Position numbers and translations under genes: made by a program
Notes under the pieces: model-generated
Database searches by the model: none
Told to the model about the DNA's origin: nothing
The model's input: only the letters and a program-made list of their open reading frames with translations
Shown: positions 3,713-42,206 of the stretch, piece after piece
Numbering within the stretch: the stretch's first letter is position 1
Layout: every line of letters begins with the position of its first letter
Source: Periweissella fabaria
Lineage (GTDB): Bacteria; Bacillota; Bacilli; Lactobacillales; Lactobacillaceae
NCBI RefSeq assembly: GCF_918814575.1
Contig: NZ_CAKKNS010000003.1
Coordinates: 124,001 to 188,000 of the forward strand
Direction of reading: 5' to 3'
DNA length: 64,000 nt

Positions 3713-4081
3713 TTACATCTGCATAGCGAGAATTTTACCAAGATCTAATCCAATAAAACTCATACCTATACCAATCAGAATCGTTAAACTTGCATACCGC
3801 CAAGCAATCGTTTGATGATTTTCATTCAAACTCAGTAATTCACCCATAAACGTTGAAAATGTCGTGAAGCCACCAATAATTCCAGTACCTAAAAATAATT
3901 TCAACGCCGGATGCCATGGTAACGGTGCCAAGATGCCAAGTAAGAAGGCTCCACTTAAATTAATTAACAACGTTGTGATTGGTAAGGGCTGTTTCGTAAC
4001 GCGCTTACCATAATCCATAACTAAAAAACGTATCACACTACCTAAAGCGGCCCCACAACCTGCAACTAAAATATTAAACAT
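3713..4081 (-). CDS. crcB: fluoride ion channel subunit CrcB/Fluc (second of pair)
   Basis: Four-helix membrane protein of 122 residues that exports fluoride. Family marks are the NLSGAFLLG motif of helix 2 and GGFTTFSTFMGE of helix 3, which carries the Phe-box and Ser/Thr track. Its start overlaps the end of the upstream paralogue by 8 bases. Paired crcB genes in Gram-positives commonly encode oppositely oriented subunits of a heterodimer. Confidence 0.92.
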   Translation of the reverse strand: MFNILVAGCGAALGSVIRFLVMDYGKRVTKQPLPITTLLINLSGAFLLGILAPLPWHPALKLFLGTGIIGGFTTFSTFMGELLSLNENHQTIAWRYASLTILIGIGMSFIGLDLGKILAMQM

Positions 4082-4445
4082 GTTTTCCTCCTACACGCAT
4101 CCCCAAAATTGTTGCTAGTAAGCCACCACCAAAACTAACTACTAAATATAATAGTGCCAATCCAATGTGATGATTGATGATCAATTGATTGTTTTCTAAT
4201 ATTAAAGTCGAATAAGTTGTATAAGAGCCTACTATTCCCGTTGTCAAACCCGTTGCAACAGCCGGTGGCATTGCCCAGCGGGTGTTAATTTTATAATTCA
4301 AGAAACTTAGCATAAAAGCACCGGTTAAATTTATTACTAAAGTTGCCCATGGAAATGTTGGCGTTGCTAAGGCCATTTCAATGGCTTCCCGTAAGCCACC
4401 ACCGATAAAGCCACCAATTAATACTGCTAGTATTTTTTTCTTCAT
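4074..4445 (-). CDS. crcB: fluoride ion channel subunit CrcB/Fluc (first of pair)
   Basis: Membrane protein of 123 residues, paralogous to the gene it overlaps. It has NLTGAFML in helix 2 and GSYTTYSTL in helix 3, where Tyr replaces the Phe seen in the partner; asymmetric pore residues are expected in a heterodimeric Fluc. The N-terminal charge pattern (MKKK) suggests a fixed orientation. The AT-rich 47 bases before its start contain no GGUGAUGG-like fluoride riboswitch core. Confidence 0.92.
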   Translation of the reverse strand: MKKKILAVLIGGFIGGGLREAIEMALATPTFPWATLVINLTGAFMLSFLNYKINTRWAMPPAVATGLTTGIVGSYTTYSTLILENNQLIINHHIGLALLYLVVSFGGGLLATILGMRVGGKHV

Positions 4446-4491: not shown

Positions 4492-4520
4492 TTGACAAAT
4501 AAGCATTAACTTGCTATATT
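4492..4520 (+). promoter_or_regulatory. promoter of the trp leader and trpXYZ operon
   Basis: A perfect TTGACA (4492-4497), a 17-base spacer and TATATT (4515-4520) preceded by TGC form a strong extended -10 promoter. Transcription should begin near 4527, giving a leader of about 290 nt before trpX. The divergent crcB pair starts on the other side. Confidence 0.85.
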
Positions 4521-4559
4521 TAATCACAACTTATAGACATTTCAAACGAGGAAGTTATT

Positions 4560-4607
4560 ATGAAAACCTTTATTAACAACAATATTAATAGTTGGTGGCG
4601 TCGGTAA
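4560..4607 (+). CDS. Trp-rich leader peptide of the trpXYZ attenuator
   Basis: Fifteen-residue open frame MKTFINNNINSWWRR followed by TAA. Two consecutive TGG codons (4593-4598) come just before two Arg codons and the stop. A good ribosome binding site (CGAGGAAG) ends 5 bases before the ATG. The layout matches amino-acid leader peptides such as E. coli trpL: short, translated, with tandem codons for the sensed amino acid at the 3' end, overlapping an RNA strand that pairs downstream. The peptide probably has no function except to let the ribosome sense charged tRNA-Trp. Inferred from sequence alone. Confidence 0.8.
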   Translation: MKTFINNNINSWWRR

Positions 4608-4692
4608 ATTCAAGTTACATCACAGGTGTGACTTGATCAAACAGATCATTTCGCATCTGTGCCGACAACTTTTTCGTACAACGAAGGTCAGC
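4591..4692 (+). promoter_or_regulatory. alternative RNA structures of the Trp attenuator (1:2 and 2:3 pairing)
   Basis: Segment 1 (4591-4599, GTTGGTGGC, containing the Trp codons) can pair with segment 2 (4661-4669, GCCGACAAC) with one mismatch; GTCGG at 4600-4604 can also pair with CCGAC. Segment 2 can instead pair with segment 3: GCCGAC (4661-4666) with GTCAGC (4687-4692, one mismatch), extended by TTCGT (4673-4677) with ACGAA (4681-4685). The 2:3 form removes the left arm of the terminator. Two local hairpins fill the space between: CAAGT/ACTTG at 4611-4635 with an inner CAC/GTG, and ACAGAT/ATCTGT at 4641-4660. Confidence 0.65.
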
Positions 4693-4732
4693 ATAGGTAG
4701 CAAGTATTAAGCTAAATATGCCGGCCTTTTTT
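4684..4732 (+). terminator. attenuator terminator (3:4) of the trpXYZ leader
   Basis: AAGGTCAGCATA (4684-4695) pairs with TATGCCGGCCTT (4717-4728), with one G-U and one mismatch, and is followed by a T-run to 4732. The left arm is shared with the 2:3 antiterminator, so ribosome stalling at the Trp codons would prevent its formation. Confidence 0.8.
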
Positions 4733-4755
4733 AATTACTTTATTCTAGAAACAAG

Positions 4756-4801
4756 TAGTGGATTAGGTGCAGATATATTGCGCTTAATCCACTATTTTTT
4801 T
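4756..4801 (+). terminator. second leader terminator, 18 bases before trpX
   Basis: TAGTGGATTAGGTGCA and TGCGCTTAATCCACTA form a 16-bp stem with two G-U pairs and a 7-base loop, followed by seven T. It is a textbook intrinsic terminator placed between the Trp attenuator and the transporter genes. No competing pairing partner was obvious by eye. Confidence 0.8.
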
Positions 4802-4819
4802 GAAAGCAGGAATTATATT

Positions 4820-5827
4820 ATGAAACGACTATTTTTATCTATCGGTTTGATTCTAGCAGTATTAGTTGGTGCCTTTTTTGGTGCTAGTCACAATACTAAC
4901 CAAGCTAATACTCAGAAAAAGATTCCCACTGTTGGAATCTTACAATTTTTAACCCACCCTGCACTAGATGCGATTCACAAAGGGATGGTCGATGAACTAG
5001 CCAAAGAAGGCTATATTGATGGCAAAACAATTCACATCGATTTTCAAAATGCACAAGGTAACCAAAGTAATTTAAAATCAATGGCAACTAAATTTGATAA
5101 CGAAAATGCCGATCTTTCAGTTGGGATTGCAACCCCAGCGGCCCAAGCATTAGCCAATACCGTAAGTGGTAAGGTTTTATTTGCTCCTTCGACTAACCCT
5201 GTCGCAGCTGGCTTGGTTACTGATTTAAAGCATCCTGGGAATCACGTTACCGGGGTTTCTGACCAAGCACCGCTCAAAGACCAATTAGCATTAATCAAAA
5301 AATTCATTCCACAGCTCCAAACTCTAGGTATTATCTACACATCATCTGACATTTCAGCCACAACTGAAGCAAAAGAAATGGTCAAATTAGCTACCCAAGC
5401 TGGCTTAAAAACCAAAGTTTATACAATTGCCCAATCAAATGATTTAGCACAAGTTGCCCAATCAATGGCGCGAAACAAAGCTATTAACGCTGTATTTGTA
5501 CCAACCGACAATACCATTGCCAGTTCAATGCCGGTCTTACTTCAAGCAACTAACCCAGCTAAAATGCCCGTTTTCCCAACAGCTAGCACAATGGTCCAAG
5601 CTGGCGGCATTGCAGCTGAATCAATTAACCAATACCAAATTGGGGTCACCACAGGTAAAATGATTGCTAAAATCTTAAGGGGCCAAACAATTAATGACAC
5701 CCCTGTTGAATTCATGAAAAAAGGTGAACTAGTTATTAATGTCAAAGCTGCTCAAAAGCTTGGTATTGACGTCCCCGCAGATTTATTAAAACAAGCCAAA
5801 GCTATTCCAGGAGGTATTATTAAATGA
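4820..5827 (+). CDS. trpX: ABC transporter substrate-binding protein, probable tryptophan/aromatic uptake
   Basis: Extracytoplasmic binding protein of 335 residues, of the family often found with the paired permease and ATPase downstream (COG2984 type). A signal-anchor occupies about residues 4-22; no lipobox cysteine is visible, so it may be membrane-tethered by the uncleaved helix. The frame stays open upstream to an ATG at 4718, but that ATG lies inside a terminator arm without a ribosome binding site, whereas the ATG at 4820 has AGGA 8 bases upstream. The stop overlaps the next start (ATGA). The Trp specificity comes from the leader peptide, not from the protein sequence. Confidence 0.82.
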   Translation: MKRLFLSIGLILAVLVGAFFGASHNTNQANTQKKIPTVGILQFLTHPALDAIHKGMVDELAKEGYIDGKTIHIDFQNAQGNQSNLKSMATKFDNENADLSVGIATPAAQALANTVSGKVLFAPSTNPVAAGLVTDLKHPGNHVTGVSDQAPLKDQLALIKKFIPQLQTLGIIYTSSDISATTEAKEMVKLATQAGLKTKVYTIAQSNDLAQVAQSMARNKAINAVFVPTDNTIASSMPVLLQATNPAKMPVFPTASTMVQAGGIAAESINQYQIGVTTGKMIAKILRGQTINDTPVEFMKKGELVINVKAAQKLGIDVPADLLKQAKAIPGGIIK

Positions 5828-6723
5828 GTATTTTAGTATCAGCTATCGGTCAGGGCTTAATCTGGGCCGTCCTCGGGTTGGGACTATTCTTAACCTTTCG
5901 GATTTTAAATTTTGCTGACATGTCAGTTGAAGGAACATTTCCATTAGGAGCGGCAACTGCGGTAGCCTTAATTCACAATGGTGTTAATCCCTATTTAGCA
6001 ATGCTCGCCGCGGCTGGAGCTGGGGCTCTAGCCGGTTTAGTTACTGGTTTACTCTACACCAAAGGTAAAATTCCGATTCTATTAGCTGGAATTTTAACAA
6101 TGACTGCTATTTTTTCAATTAACCTCCGTATTCTTAACGGGGCCAACTTATCATTGTTAAATCAAAAGACAGTACTTAATAGTCATTTCATGCAACAGTT
6201 ACCACCATTTTTTAATACTGTATTCGTCGGTATGATCGTATTAGCCGTCATTATCGGGGGCTTAATTTATTTATTACAAACTAATTTTGGCCAAGCCTTT
6301 ATCGCCACTGGGAATAACCCAACAATGGCGCAATCATTTGGAATTAATTCAGATTCAATGACCATCTTTGGCTTGATGCTCTCAAATGCACTGATTGCTT
6401 TTGGCGGTGCCTTAATCGCCCAAAATAACGGTTATGCTGATGTTAACATGGGAATTGGTATTATCGTGATTGCATTAGCATCTATCATCATCGGTGAAGT
6501 CGCTTTCGGTGATTTATCTCTTAACTTTCGCTTGATTGCCATTGCTGTTGGCTCAATTTTCTACCGGTTTGTCTTACTCCTCGTTTTACAACTTGGTTTC
6601 AATCCAAACGATTTAAACTTACTTTCAGCAATTGTCTTAGCCCTTGCGCTGTTAACGCCTAAGCTACAACACATCTTTAAAATTAAAAATGTTCTCAAAG
6701 GATCGGTGACTCGGCATGAATAA
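5824..6723 (+). CDS. trpY: ABC transporter permease, probable tryptophan uptake
   Basis: Integral membrane protein of 299 residues with about eight or nine hydrophobic segments, of the branched-chain-like permease fold (COG4120 type). It overlaps the binding-protein gene by 4 bases and the ATPase gene by 8, so the three products are translationally coupled. The motif GLFLTFRILNFADMSVEG near the N-terminus is typical of this permease subfamily. It should form the membrane channel with the two flanking products; the substrate is inferred from the leader. Confidence 0.84.
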   Translation: MSILVSAIGQGLIWAVLGLGLFLTFRILNFADMSVEGTFPLGAATAVALIHNGVNPYLAMLAAAGAGALAGLVTGLLYTKGKIPILLAGILTMTAIFSINLRILNGANLSLLNQKTVLNSHFMQQLPPFFNTVFVGMIVLAVIIGGLIYLLQTNFGQAFIATGNNPTMAQSFGINSDSMTIFGLMLSNALIAFGGALIAQNNGYADVNMGIGIIVIALASIIIGEVAFGDLSLNFRLIAIAVGSIFYRFVLLLVLQLGFNPNDLNLLSAIVLALALLTPKLQHIFKIKNVLKGSVTRHE

Positions 6724-7483
6724 ACCTTTAATTACTTTAACGGATGTCTCAACAACCGTCCAAAATAGCACTGGTACTAGTATCAATATTTTAAAAAAGC
6801 TCAATTTGACAATCAATGAAGGGGATTTTATCACCGTGCTTGGTTCCAATGGAGCTGGTAAATCAACCCTATTTAATGTTATTGCAGGTGGCATTAAAGC
6901 TACCACTGGTACCATCAAGCTCAACAATCGTGATATTACCCACGAAAGTGAACTGAAACGTACTAAATATATTAGCCGCGTCTTTCAAGATCCCAAATTA
7001 GGGACCGCCCCACGGATGACCGTCGCTGAAAACTTACTTTTAGCTCTCAATCGACGCCACAGCTTTTCTTTGATGCCTCGTCATCTCAATAAGCATCTAG
7101 CAGAATTTACACAAATTACTAAGCAAATGGGTAACGGCTTGGACCAACGTCTCCAAACAAGCGTTGGTAGCCTTTCTGGTGGTCAACGTCAAGCGCTTAG
7201 CTTTTTAATGGCAACCATTCAAAAGCCCGAACTATTATTACTTGACGAACACACCGCTGCCCTTGACCCTAAAACAAGTGCCCAATTAATGCACCTTACT
7301 AATGAGAAAGTAACATCGAATGCACAAACTGCATTAATGATTACTCACAACCTTGAAGATGCATTGACATACGGTAACCGGCTAATTGTATTACACGACG
7401 GTCAAATTACCCTTGATGTTACGGGGACCGCCAAAGAACAATTAACTAAAGATGACTTACTTAACTATTTCGCTAGTTACTAA
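6716..7483 (+). CDS. trpZ: ABC transporter ATP-binding protein, probable tryptophan uptake
   Basis: Cytoplasmic ATPase of 255 residues that powers the importer (COG1101 type). Walker A is GSNGAGKST at about residues 43-51, the signature LSGGQRQ at about 153, and Walker B LLLLDEHTAALDP follows; the His in place of Pro in the D-loop region is typical of this subfamily. It is the last gene of the operon and ends 21 bases before a strong bidirectional terminator. Confidence 0.88.
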   Translation: MNKPLITLTDVSTTVQNSTGTSINILKKLNLTINEGDFITVLGSNGAGKSTLFNVIAGGIKATTGTIKLNNRDITHESELKRTKYISRVFQDPKLGTAPRMTVAENLLLALNRRHSFSLMPRHLNKHLAEFTQITKQMGNGLDQRLQTSVGSLSGGQRQALSFLMATIQKPELLLLDEHTAALDPKTSAQLMHLTNEKVTSNAQTALMITHNLEDALTYGNRLIVLHDGQITLDVTGTAKEQLTKDDLLNYFASY

Positions 7484-30510: not shown

Positions 30511-30527
30511 AGTTAACCCTTAAATAC

Positions 30528-30562
30528 AAAAAACTCGTAAGGATAAATCCTTACGAGTTTTT
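30528..30562. terminator. bidirectional terminator between mupG and LCP genes
   Basis: AAAAACTCGTAAGGAT and ATCCTTACGAGTTTTT around a 2-base loop, between convergent genes. Confidence 0.94.
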
Positions 30563-30591
30563 TATTTTAAATATATTTAACTAACATCGGT

Positions 30592-31710
30592 TTATTGGCC
30601 AGATGCTTGAATTCTTGCATAACTCGGAATCGTTTCTGCCACCGAAGATGGATTCTTACTTGCAAAGCGATTTCCCGTATTAGCTTGACTTATGTTAAGT
30701 GATTTACGTAATGTATCAGTAGCGTTTTGTTGGGCAGCTGGTGAGACAACTTGGAATGATTGACCACGGTATAAGTACTGAATACCTTGGATATTTGTTG
30801 AGGTAATTGAATCTTTAGCTGAACGGTATTTAGCAACCAACGTCATAATATCATTAAATGATAAATTTGTTCGAATATTACTTGAAATAGACTCGAAGAA
30901 ACCAGGTGTAAATAAGCTTTGTACTTTATCTGATTTTTTCAATAAAGCTGTCAGAATTAATCGTTGACGCATTTGCCGACCATAATCTCCTTGAGGATCA
31001 TCATCGCGCATCCGTGAAAATTCAAGAGCTTTTTTACCGTACAAATGATACTCTTTGCCTTTAACAAAAGTGTAGCCCGCAAATTCAAATGAAAGTGGTG
31101 AGACAACATCAACCCCCCCAACCTTATCAACCGTCTTAACCAACCCACCCATGTTAATAACAGCATAAAAATCAATTGGCACATTCAATAAATCTTGGAC
31201 TGCCGAAATTGCCGTTTCTGGGTGTCCCTTTCCATTTAATGGAAACTCATAAGCCGCATTAAGTTTTTGCATGCCATATGATTCACTTCCTGGAATCGAA
31301 ATCATCCAGTCACGTGGTAGTGACATCATGGTTGTTGTCTTATCTTTTGGATTAATAGTTGCTAAAATTAATGAATCTGTCCGGCCAGTATATGACCGAC
31401 CAAAATCACCAGTATCCGTTCCCATAAGTAGAATTGAGAAAGGACGTCCCTCTTTTAAAACATCTGAAACATCACGTGCTCGTTTAAACCCTTTCGCCAA
31501 CGGATTATATGTTGAATCAAGGGCATTACGGGCATTACGATACACATTAAAGGCAAAAACTCCACCACCCAATAACATGAGTACAATAATGGTAATAATT
31601 ACTTTTAATGTGGTATGTTTTTTCTTTTTTTGTTTTGGTTTATTATTATTTTCGTTATTATGATTCCGTATCCGACTTGGAAGTTGGTTATCATTTGGTC
31701 GATTTTCCAT
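30592..31710 (-). CDS. LytR-CpsA-Psr (LCP) family cell-wall ligase
   Basis: Membrane-anchored enzyme of 372 residues that transfers teichoic acid or polysaccharide from a lipid carrier to peptidoglycan. A Lys/Asn-rich cytoplasmic tail (1-32) precedes one helix (about 33-54); the LCP domain has the family motifs LLMGTDTG, GRTDSLILATINP, SLPRDW, and the FSRMRDDDPQGDYGRQMRQR segment with lipid-pyrophosphate-binding Arg. A paralogue is at 46436-47350. Confidence 0.93.
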   Translation of the reverse strand: MENRPNDNQLPSRIRNHNNENNNKPKQKKKKHTTLKVIITIIVLMLLGGGVFAFNVYRNARNALDSTYNPLAKGFKRARDVSDVLKEGRPFSILLMGTDTGDFGRSYTGRTDSLILATINPKDKTTTMMSLPRDWMISIPGSESYGMQKLNAAYEFPLNGKGHPETAISAVQDLLNVPIDFYAVINMGGLVKTVDKVGGVDVVSPLSFEFAGYTFVKGKEYHLYGKKALEFSRMRDDDPQGDYGRQMRQRLILTALLKKSDKVQSLFTPGFFESISSNIRTNLSFNDIMTLVAKYRSAKDSITSTNIQGIQYLYRGQSFQVVSPAAQQNATDTLRKSLNISQANTGNRFASKNPSSVAETIPSYARIQASGQ

Positions 31711-41917: not shown

Positions 41918-41990
41918 GGACAGCTAGCTCAGCTGGCAGAGCAACGGACTCTTAATCCGTGGGTCCAGGGTTCGATCCCCTGGCTGTCCA
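41918..41990 (+). tRNA. tRNA-Lys (anticodon CTT), copy 1
   Basis: Seventy-three bases fold into a cloverleaf: acceptor GGACAGC/GCTGTCC with discriminator A, D arm GCTC/GAGC, anticodon stem CGGA/TCCG around ctCTTaa, and T arm CCAGG/CCTGG with TTCGATC. The CCA tail is not encoded. Confidence 0.97.
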
Positions 41991-42025
41991 TTTCAACCAT
42001 TATCGGTTGCATAATTTAATATTTT

Positions 42026-42098
42026 GGACAGCTAGCTCAGCTGGCAGAGCAACGGACTCTTAATCCGTGGGTCCAGGGTTCGATCCCCTGGCTGTCCA
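42026..42098 (+). tRNA. tRNA-Lys (anticodon CTT), copy 2
   Basis: Identical in all 73 bases to copy 1, including acceptor, anticodon and T arms; CCA not encoded. Confidence 0.97.
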
Positions 42099-42133
42099 TT
42101 CCAACCATTATCGGTTGTATAATTCAATATTTC

Positions 42134-42206
42134 GGACAGCTAGCTCAGCTGGCAGAGCAACGGACTCTTAATCCGTGGGTCCAGGGTTCGATCCCCTGGC
42201 TGTCCA
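42134..42206 (+). tRNA. tRNA-Lys (anticodon CTT), copy 3
   Basis: Identical to copies 1 and 2; last gene of the cluster, followed 52 bases later by a terminator. Confidence 0.97.

Follow-up and report, generated by a model that had tools for sequence, protein, structure and literature searches.

How a lactic acid bacterium controls its uptake of tryptophan is the question raised by a stretch of 64,000 nucleotides from Periweissella fabaria (the window), in which a transporter operon, trpXYZ, is preceded by a tiny reading frame with tandem Trp codons just before its stop. Could the ribosome that reads this frame decide whether the operon is transcribed? The first-pass annotation, made from the sequence of the region, described a strong promoter, a 15-codon frame with a ribosome binding site, three mutually exclusive RNA pairings as in the E. 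coli trp attenuator and a probable Trp ABC transporter downstream, and considered a translated leader unusual in Firmicutes.

Published work offers several models for such a locus. A T-box riboswitch has been shown for trpXYZ of Streptococcus suis (PMC9382623). The trpB motif (Rfam RF04312), an RNA family with over 900 published members, has been put forward as a strong candidate for a riboswitch by authors who left a protein factor or a classic attenuator possible (PMC11109978). His leaders in Firmicutes, including Peptostreptococcaceae (PMC9413887), and hisS leader peptides of bacilli (PMC2965389) have already been reported. Among the matches listed in a search of the open literature, we found no paper tying RF04312 to leader peptides and none on Trp leaders at trpXYZ in lactic acid bacteria.

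The leader of trpXYZ in Periweissella

The leader observed at 4492-4732 is real, and its features are collected in Table 1 together with the genes of the operon. The promoter is strong by its consensus matches. Its TTGACA box is identical in 5/5 Periweissella genomes; the -10 box is the same in four and TATAGT in one. The leader frame is present as described, with its Shine-Dalgarno sequence and with TGG TGG at 4593-4598 followed by CGT CGG TAA. Its start differs among Periweissella (MANSLQQVNSWWRR, MKNSINQLNIWWRR), the run TTGGTGGCGTCGGTAA is invariant in the five leaders, and the -35 box and the Shine-Dalgarno region are retained as well. The expected transporter was borne out by a TrpX match above the curated cut-off (NF041285). 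The in-frame ATG at 4820 was chosen as the trpX start from its Shine-Dalgarno sequence and conservation; the start at 4718 given by the ORF call was rejected, the extension being missing in some relatives, where the open frames span 336 to 376 aa. A genus search found trpX in 5/5 Periweissella genomes, and identity of the TrpX gene to the P. ghanensis, P. fabalis and P. beninensis records is 90, 89 and 70%. Divergent from the trp leader, two adjacent CrcB-like fluoride channel genes lie on the minus strand (3713-4445), both scoring under the curated cut-offs shown. Elsewhere in the window (41918-42206) three equal-scoring tRNA genes stand in tandem, spaced 108 bases.

Table 1. Positions of the leader elements and operon genes within the window
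Feature	Position	Strand	Support
Promoter: -35 TTGACA 4492-4497, 17 nt, extended -10 TATATT 4515-4520 (TG precedes)	4492-4520	+	11/12 matches
Shine-Dalgarno GAGGAAG of leader frame	4548-4554	+	sequence
Leader ORF MKTFINNNINSWWRR plus stop, 15 codons	4560-4607	+	WWRR-stop end in 5/5 Periweissella
Strand A (ORF end), partner 4661-4666	4600-4605	+	6/6 pairs in 5/5 sequences
B:C hairpin just past leader stop, 4610-4621 with 4625-4636	4610-4636	+	12/12 pairs in 5/5
C:D hairpin, alternative to B:C, 4621-4638 with 4644-4661	4621-4661	+	16/16 pairs in 5/5
D:E antiterminator, 4655-4677 with 4681-4698	4655-4698	+	17/17 pairs in 3 sequences, 15/17 in the two most distant
E:F, first intrinsic terminator, U-run 4727-4732	4683-4732	+	-19.5 kcal/mol, z -4.76
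G:H, second U-tailed hairpin, stem 4753-4772 with 4778-4797, U-run 4795-4801	4753-4801	+	-26.5 kcal/mol, z -8.48
trpX, tryptophan ABC transporter substrate-binding protein	4820-5827	+	NF041285 409.4 bits, cut-off 390
trpY, permease (BPD_transp_2)	5824-6723	+	domain match
trpZ, ATPase (ABC_tran)	6716-7483	+	domain match

The RNA from 4528 to 4806 folds with -91.6 kcal/mol (z -9.15 against dinucleotide shuffles), and at full length without a ribosome the fold holds A:D, C:D and both terminators. Mutually exclusive helices exist as the first-pass annotation had proposed, but its set of three overlooked the alternatives B:C and C:D past the stop as well as the second terminator. Its 1:2 pairing, placed from 4591-4604, comes down to the 6 bp between A and D, and its 2:3 antiterminator exists and is longer than claimed; the 3:4 terminator stands as E:F. 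In the five Periweissella sequences one pair of B:C is altered on both sides, as are two of C:D, which occupies the place of P1 of RF04312, and two of D:E. A U-tailed hairpin stands at the place of E:F in 5/5 genomes (on alignment A3, 16/16 pairs in three sequences, 11 and 12/16 in two distant ones), and the G:H stem is retained with different letters in two more distant genomes. A simple terminator scan of the window lists neither of these two hairpins. Slid versions of the helices pair in 14 to 54% of cells, compared with 95 to 100% for the true helices, and the covariation score, which draws on only three lineages, was matched by 88 (B:C), 17 (C:D) and 11 (D:E) of 500 shuffles. The check on relatives that had been suggested thus found both Trp codons and stems conserved.

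A modelled switch

The Trp codons of the tiny leader gene probably act as the sensor. When charged tRNA-Trp is scarce, the ribosome would wait at TGG TGG and mask strand A only, leaving B free, so that B:C would form and keep C off D; D would then be free to form D:E as E emerges, E:F would be blocked and trpXYZ would be transcribed. With ample tryptophan the ribosome would reach the stop a few codons on and mask B, so that C would pair with D and E with F, and transcription would end. For a leader that is not translated, what the model predicts in the window when the decision falls is mixed. B lies a few bases past the leader stop, and in the model the extra post-stop hairpin decides the switch in that the ribosome at the stop masks B.

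For the modelling, the leaders of 45 hand-set loci from 32 genera were truncated at the end of E and folded with the bases under the ribosome, taken as the A site and a further 11 to 14 nt, excluded. E paired with upstream sequence most when the ribosome stood at Trp (0.64) and less when it stood at the stop (0.47) or was absent (0.44; Wilcoxon p 2e-4); the corresponding model values for the window are 0.84, 0.32 and 0.61. Stall exceeded stop by more than 0.1 in 23/45 loci and stop exceeded stall in 4/45, the average difference in the model being modest. When the ribosome was moved from codon -7 to +5, mean pairing of E peaked at the Trp codon (0.643) and was low at codons +4 (0.473) and +5 (0.458), the place of the stop in most loci; codon -3 was nearly as low as the stop (0.464), and the curve climbs again seven and eight codons past Trp (0.58, 0.69). 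The three codons from -1 to +1 gave 0.83 to 0.85 in the window, with 0.85 at the codon preceding Trp, compared with 0.32 at the stop. The earlier proposal of a translated Trp leader controlling uptake by TrpXYZ is supported on three counts: by conservation, by compensatory changes and by the folds modelled with a ribosome.

Trp leaders across Lactobacillaceae

TrpX (NF041285) was matched in 363/397 Lactobacillaceae genomes. From 33 further genera we sampled 79 genomes, which gave 80 upstream stretches; G018, whose gene is split, and the second G016 copy were left out. Together with the five Periweissella these stretches make 85 regions from 34 genera. An ATG frame with a Shine-Dalgarno match of at least 3 nt and Trp in the last nine codons was present in 81/85 trpX regions (16.9 in shuffles). 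With the same start and Shine-Dalgarno rule, Trp followed by Trp or Gln, or two Trp near the stop (W..W), was found in 80/85 (shuffles 1.3), and with a stricter match of at least 4 nt in 70/85 (shuffles 0.4). No leader was found in 3/85 regions (L074, L077, L100), and the motif of L050 is cut by the end of the stretch; the remaining 81 regions are the base of the following counts. The leaders end in WWRR, WQSR, WQSW, WWWL and similar, with one Trp codon in 43/81, two in 34 and three in 4, and the first Trp lies four codons ahead of the stop in 51/81. Overlapping B:C and C:D helices occur at 63/81 loci versus 15% of shuffles. Judged by sequence, the Trp leader is the usual form for trpXYZ in Lactobacillaceae, not a rare one. 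The view that a translated leader is unusual in Firmicutes agrees with the literature as far as its available parts go, but for trpXYZ in this family the leader is the rule.

By eye, L053, L069, L081, L087, L068, L102, L115 and L117 retain the first hairpin and have no U-run directly after it; at these loci the second hairpin is therefore likely to be the terminator.

Relation to the trpB motif

In an Rfam search RF04312 was found upstream of trpX in several genera. At 15 of the 16 matches beside trpX, the motif is preceded, at a distance of 7 to 21 nt, by the stop of a frame ending in NNRWQSR, WWRR or similar, and the 16th is the cut locus L050. RF04312 matches were obtained in 160/295 sampled Lactobacillales genomes, in 52 above cut-off. 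All 30 above-cutoff loci read in Lactobacillales, a count that leaves L128-L131 aside, carry a Trp leader, one of them with a GTG start; the strict leader rule finds Trp at 29/30, with 0.5 expected, Phe at 0 and Leu, a common residue, at 11. The gene that follows is trpX at 24 and trpB at 3 (two confirmed by TIGR00263). The missing 5' part of RF04312, as read from these sequences, is the leader ORF. Downstream of the top-scoring Trp leader of the Lactobacillales sample (L132, G048:C1 near 26859, 86.6 bits with RF04312) lie a reverse transcriptase of a group II intron and pieces of a TrpX gene; this is a second copy of the operon that is broken.

The Rfam model scores the window under its gathering score of 59 bits; on L012 it gave no match up to E 5, and on the nearest relative, L016, 31.7 bits (E 0.92). 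A further model, R1, was trained on 26 leaders of Lactobacillaceae, of which 11 also match RF04312; neither Periweissella nor other families were included. R1 matches the window at 4584-4732 with 69.1 bits (E 2e-16) and four Periweissella relatives with 67 to 86 bits. It also places 21/25 RF04312 loci of other families (L143, L148, L157 and L158 left out) above 31.2 bits, the score of its best chance match, an ordinary terminator. One model thus joins the window with RF04312, in line with common descent. That chance match is a second site in the window (30526-30650), rejected as an ordinary gene terminator with no leader, and another match in the same genome (C2:52493, 26.1 bits) is likewise a terminator. 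In a phylum search, RF04312 matches L129, L130 and L131 showed no leader with Trp or another run and were treated as chance.

Codon swaps outside Bacilli

At one more locus from the phylum search, L128, a leader is present: MNYINNFNLKIQIFFNNHFR stands ahead of a sodium-dependent transporter. The family of this locus, f137, lies outside class Bacilli, and we infer it to be clostridial; RF04312 matches occur in 32/146 of its genomes, none above cut-off. We read 30 loci of this family, L128 and 29 of the 47 matches listed. In 28/30 the last ten residues of the leader include three or more of a single kind among W, F, Y, H and L (shuffles 0.54); by this rule L198 is scored as Leu though its leader reads FFNNHFR.

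The codons follow the gene. His runs, at 7 loci, precede hisS (6) and hisZ (1), and no other run stands at any his gene of the 30; NCBIfam confirmed hisS in the three tested and gave hisZ in one, under its cut-off. The three Leu runs are all ahead of one NSS subgroup (3/3), and Phe and Tyr runs precede another NSS subgroup, BrnQ-like carriers and TrpX-like ABC genes. Because the leader codons change with the gene, RF04312 appears to be a codon-programmable attenuator rather than a riboswitch.

At L217, L197, L212 and L221, TrpX-like substrate-binding and permease ABC genes follow Phe leaders (FFFNSQF and similar), and from the leader sequences the substrate of these transporters may be phenylalanine, not tryptophan. 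At L196, L203 and L208, BrnQ-like "branched-chain" carriers follow Tyr/Phe leaders (YYFSYYS and similar), which suggests an aromatic substrate.

A second terminator and a possible relay

Two U-tailed hairpins were parsed automatically, in a rough way that depends on the energy and U-run thresholds, at 49/81 Lactobacillaceae loci. They also occur at 18/30 RF04312 loci of the Lactobacillales sample (29 of other families plus L132) and, subject to the same thresholds, at 14/30 f137 loci. Outside Lactobacillaceae they are found with 32/49 transporter leaders versus 0/10 his or trpB leaders (Fisher 1.3e-4, kinship ignored); this split leaves out L132 (group II intron) and L129-L131 and counts L135 and L160 as transporters with their gene not identified.

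A second terminator that is strong and unregulated would shut the operon; the one here should therefore need release. We propose that strand F, which would be free only when D:E has formed, would disarm it. Polymerases leaking past terminator 1 with E:F formed would be caught at terminator 2, and the leak would thus fall with induced expression undiminished.

The automatic tandem-hairpin parse is unreliable, and the F arms were set by hand from the sequences at 45/81 loci in 32/34 genera (g11 and g29 left out). Complementarity of F to the stretch past the first hairpin had a mean z against shuffles of -1.50 (SE 0.22) over 32 genera versus -0.50 (SE 0.17) for a control strand (paired p 3.6e-4); only this difference counts, because the control strand itself lies below zero. 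At 18 loci of other Lactobacillales families the values were -0.79 and 0.05 (p 0.012). In genus g17, 17/18 species hold eight or nine F-loop pairs despite changes on both sides, and in genus g2 13/13 have 5 to 11 contiguous F pairs; swapping the F partners among species weakens the pairing in both (p 0.049 in g17, 0.00025 in g2). A swap test of one earlier analysis was confounded by base composition and discarded as evidence.

Other observations limit the proposal. No second U-tailed hairpin was parsed at the five g2 loci tested. By this parse for five and by eye for the rest, L121, L125, L126, L165, L166, L174, L175, L178, L181, L185 and L186 of this genus seem to be without one; here the trpX Shine-Dalgarno sequence is preceded by a copy of strand E, which in some loci is part of a hairpin that could hide that sequence. 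In f137 hairpin 2 is nearly a repeat of hairpin 1; F (-3.55) therefore shows no more complementarity than the control strand (-3.66) and would fit hairpin 2 through descent as well as need. In the window, F showed no excess of relay pairing (z +1.07, p 0.87), and several genera likewise show none; an earlier F duplex of -14.4 kcal/mol in the window came from a longer strand with no control and is not relied on. Across the eight loci that by eye are without the first U-run, where the relay should matter most, the mean z was only -0.70. The relay of F likely holds for part of the family, and for this window it is unsupported. The wider proposal, that RF04312 is a modular codon-programmable scaffold in Lactobacillales and a second Bacillota group outside Bacilli, its transporter versions double-locked (in g2 by another downstream element) and released only by F, seems to us evenly poised between right and wrong.

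T-boxes in the same genome

T-boxes are frequent in this genome, with 19 matches, 6 of them above cut-off. One lies ahead of trpB (L163:1177-1411, 80.1 bits, cut-off 93), and in our reading UGG sits at the place of its specifier and trpD and trpC, judged from the frames, follow trpB. At the trpX leader the T-box model RF00230 gave no match, and the core sequence has at least 5 mismatches. In the 59/85 regions scanned with the Rfam model no T-box was found on the trpX strand, the matches at L087 and L089 being on the other strand. Given the T-box with UGG ahead of trpB, one genome seems to use two unrelated RNA sensors of one signal, a T-box for synthesis and a leader peptide for uptake.

Discussion

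Could the RNA bind tryptophan or another metabolite directly, its hairpin and terminator working as a riboswitch as proposed for the trpB motif? The hairpins are conserved and the published candidate is a strong one, although its authors kept an attenuator possible (PMC11109978). A Trp leader ORF nevertheless stands at 30/30 of the above-cutoff RF04312 loci read (29 by the strict rule, with 0.5 expected), and codon content tracks gene function in f137, and we regard a riboswitch as very improbable. In arrest peptides of the TnaC kind, free tryptophan acts with the nascent peptide and the ribosome is stalled at the stop. Such a peptide would fit the partial conservation before Trp at the peptide level, with N at -3 in 49/81 leaders and L or V at -4 in 40/81 in synonymous codons, and the common Arg end. 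Against this, the ribosome at the stop already favours termination in the model without arrest, the related leaders carry His, Phe, Tyr or Leu runs as codon reading predicts, and the residues after Trp point to an RNA constraint, Gln being CAA in 46/46 and Ser AGC in 41/41 at strand A. The chance of an arrest peptide is accordingly slim.

A T-box at trpX would have a precedent in trpXYZ of S. suis (PMC9382623), and in the T-box ahead of trpB in this very genome, yet the trpX strands of the 59/85 regions scanned showed none and the core at this leader has at least 5 mismatches; we give this alternative next to no chance. It is also conceivable that the terminators are plain ones, trpXYZ being read at a low constant level and the Trp leader a by-product of constraints on RNA pairing. 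Two strong terminators do precede trpX, but start codon, Shine-Dalgarno sequence and frame are retained over 34 genera, the leader codons vary with the gene in f137, and the alternative helices are kept by compensatory changes, which makes this explanation practically negligible. Three traits of a leader-peptide attenuator were found: a short predicted ORF with Trp codons, present and conserved ahead of a terminator; a mutually exclusive antiterminator and terminator with conserved pairing; and leader codons that fit the downstream gene, Trp with trpX or trpB and His with hisS/hisZ in 7/7. We therefore hold with high confidence that the window carries a ribosome-mediated attenuator that reads tRNA-Trp charging through the leader ORF and controls trpXYZ, a divergent relative of RF04312 in a family programmable by codons (Trp, Phe, Tyr, His, Leu). 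The evidence consists of conservation, compensatory pairs, the match of codon to gene and the modelled switch; from it we infer that the ribosome stalls, that transcription terminates and that the leader responds to tryptophan.

An orphan RNA family thus receives a testable answer: it probably senses nothing directly and reads codons through the ribosome. In Lactobacillaceae, tryptophan uptake would as a rule be under leader-peptide attenuation, where the literature, in its available parts, speaks of T-boxes. Since the leader codons name the amino acid, the family could help to annotate transporters, and the names TrpX-like and BrnQ-like may be wrong for carriers that follow Phe or Tyr leaders. 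If real, the relay of tandem terminators would be a simple design for a tight off state.

Among the closest known systems is RF04312 (SRC-39-1): C:D lies at the place of its P1 and E:F at that of its terminator, the gene neighbourhood is the same and R1 joins the two. It differs in that it was called a riboswitch candidate, with no leader ORF described in the available part of the paper (PMC11109978), and the window scores under its cut-off. The S. suis trpXYZ T-box shares the operon and the signal, tRNA-Trp charging, with the window; there, as far as the accessible part of the report goes, a T-box riboswitch and no leader peptide is described, whereas the window has a leader ORF (PMC9382623). 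The His leaders of Firmicutes are likewise predicted leader-peptide attenuators with runs of His codons, but in the parts at hand these reports deal with histidine genes only, by lineage, and describe no tie to RF04312 and no Trp, Phe, Tyr, Leu or trpXYZ leaders (PMC9413887, PMC2965389). The E. coli trp leader (RF00513) resembles the window in its short ORF with tandem Trp codons near the stop and in its exclusive antiterminator and terminator; the window differs in controlling uptake, not synthesis, in its deciding post-stop hairpin and in its second terminator. The RF00513 model gave no match at the window, and in the regions scanned only L097, from another genus, was hit (22.6 bits versus 41). 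The E. coli his leader has six segments, A-F, and one terminator. The chain of alternating hairpins is common to both, but the window has two consecutive U-tailed hairpins. The mechanism is of a classical kind; what is new is the family, its codon swaps and the double terminator.
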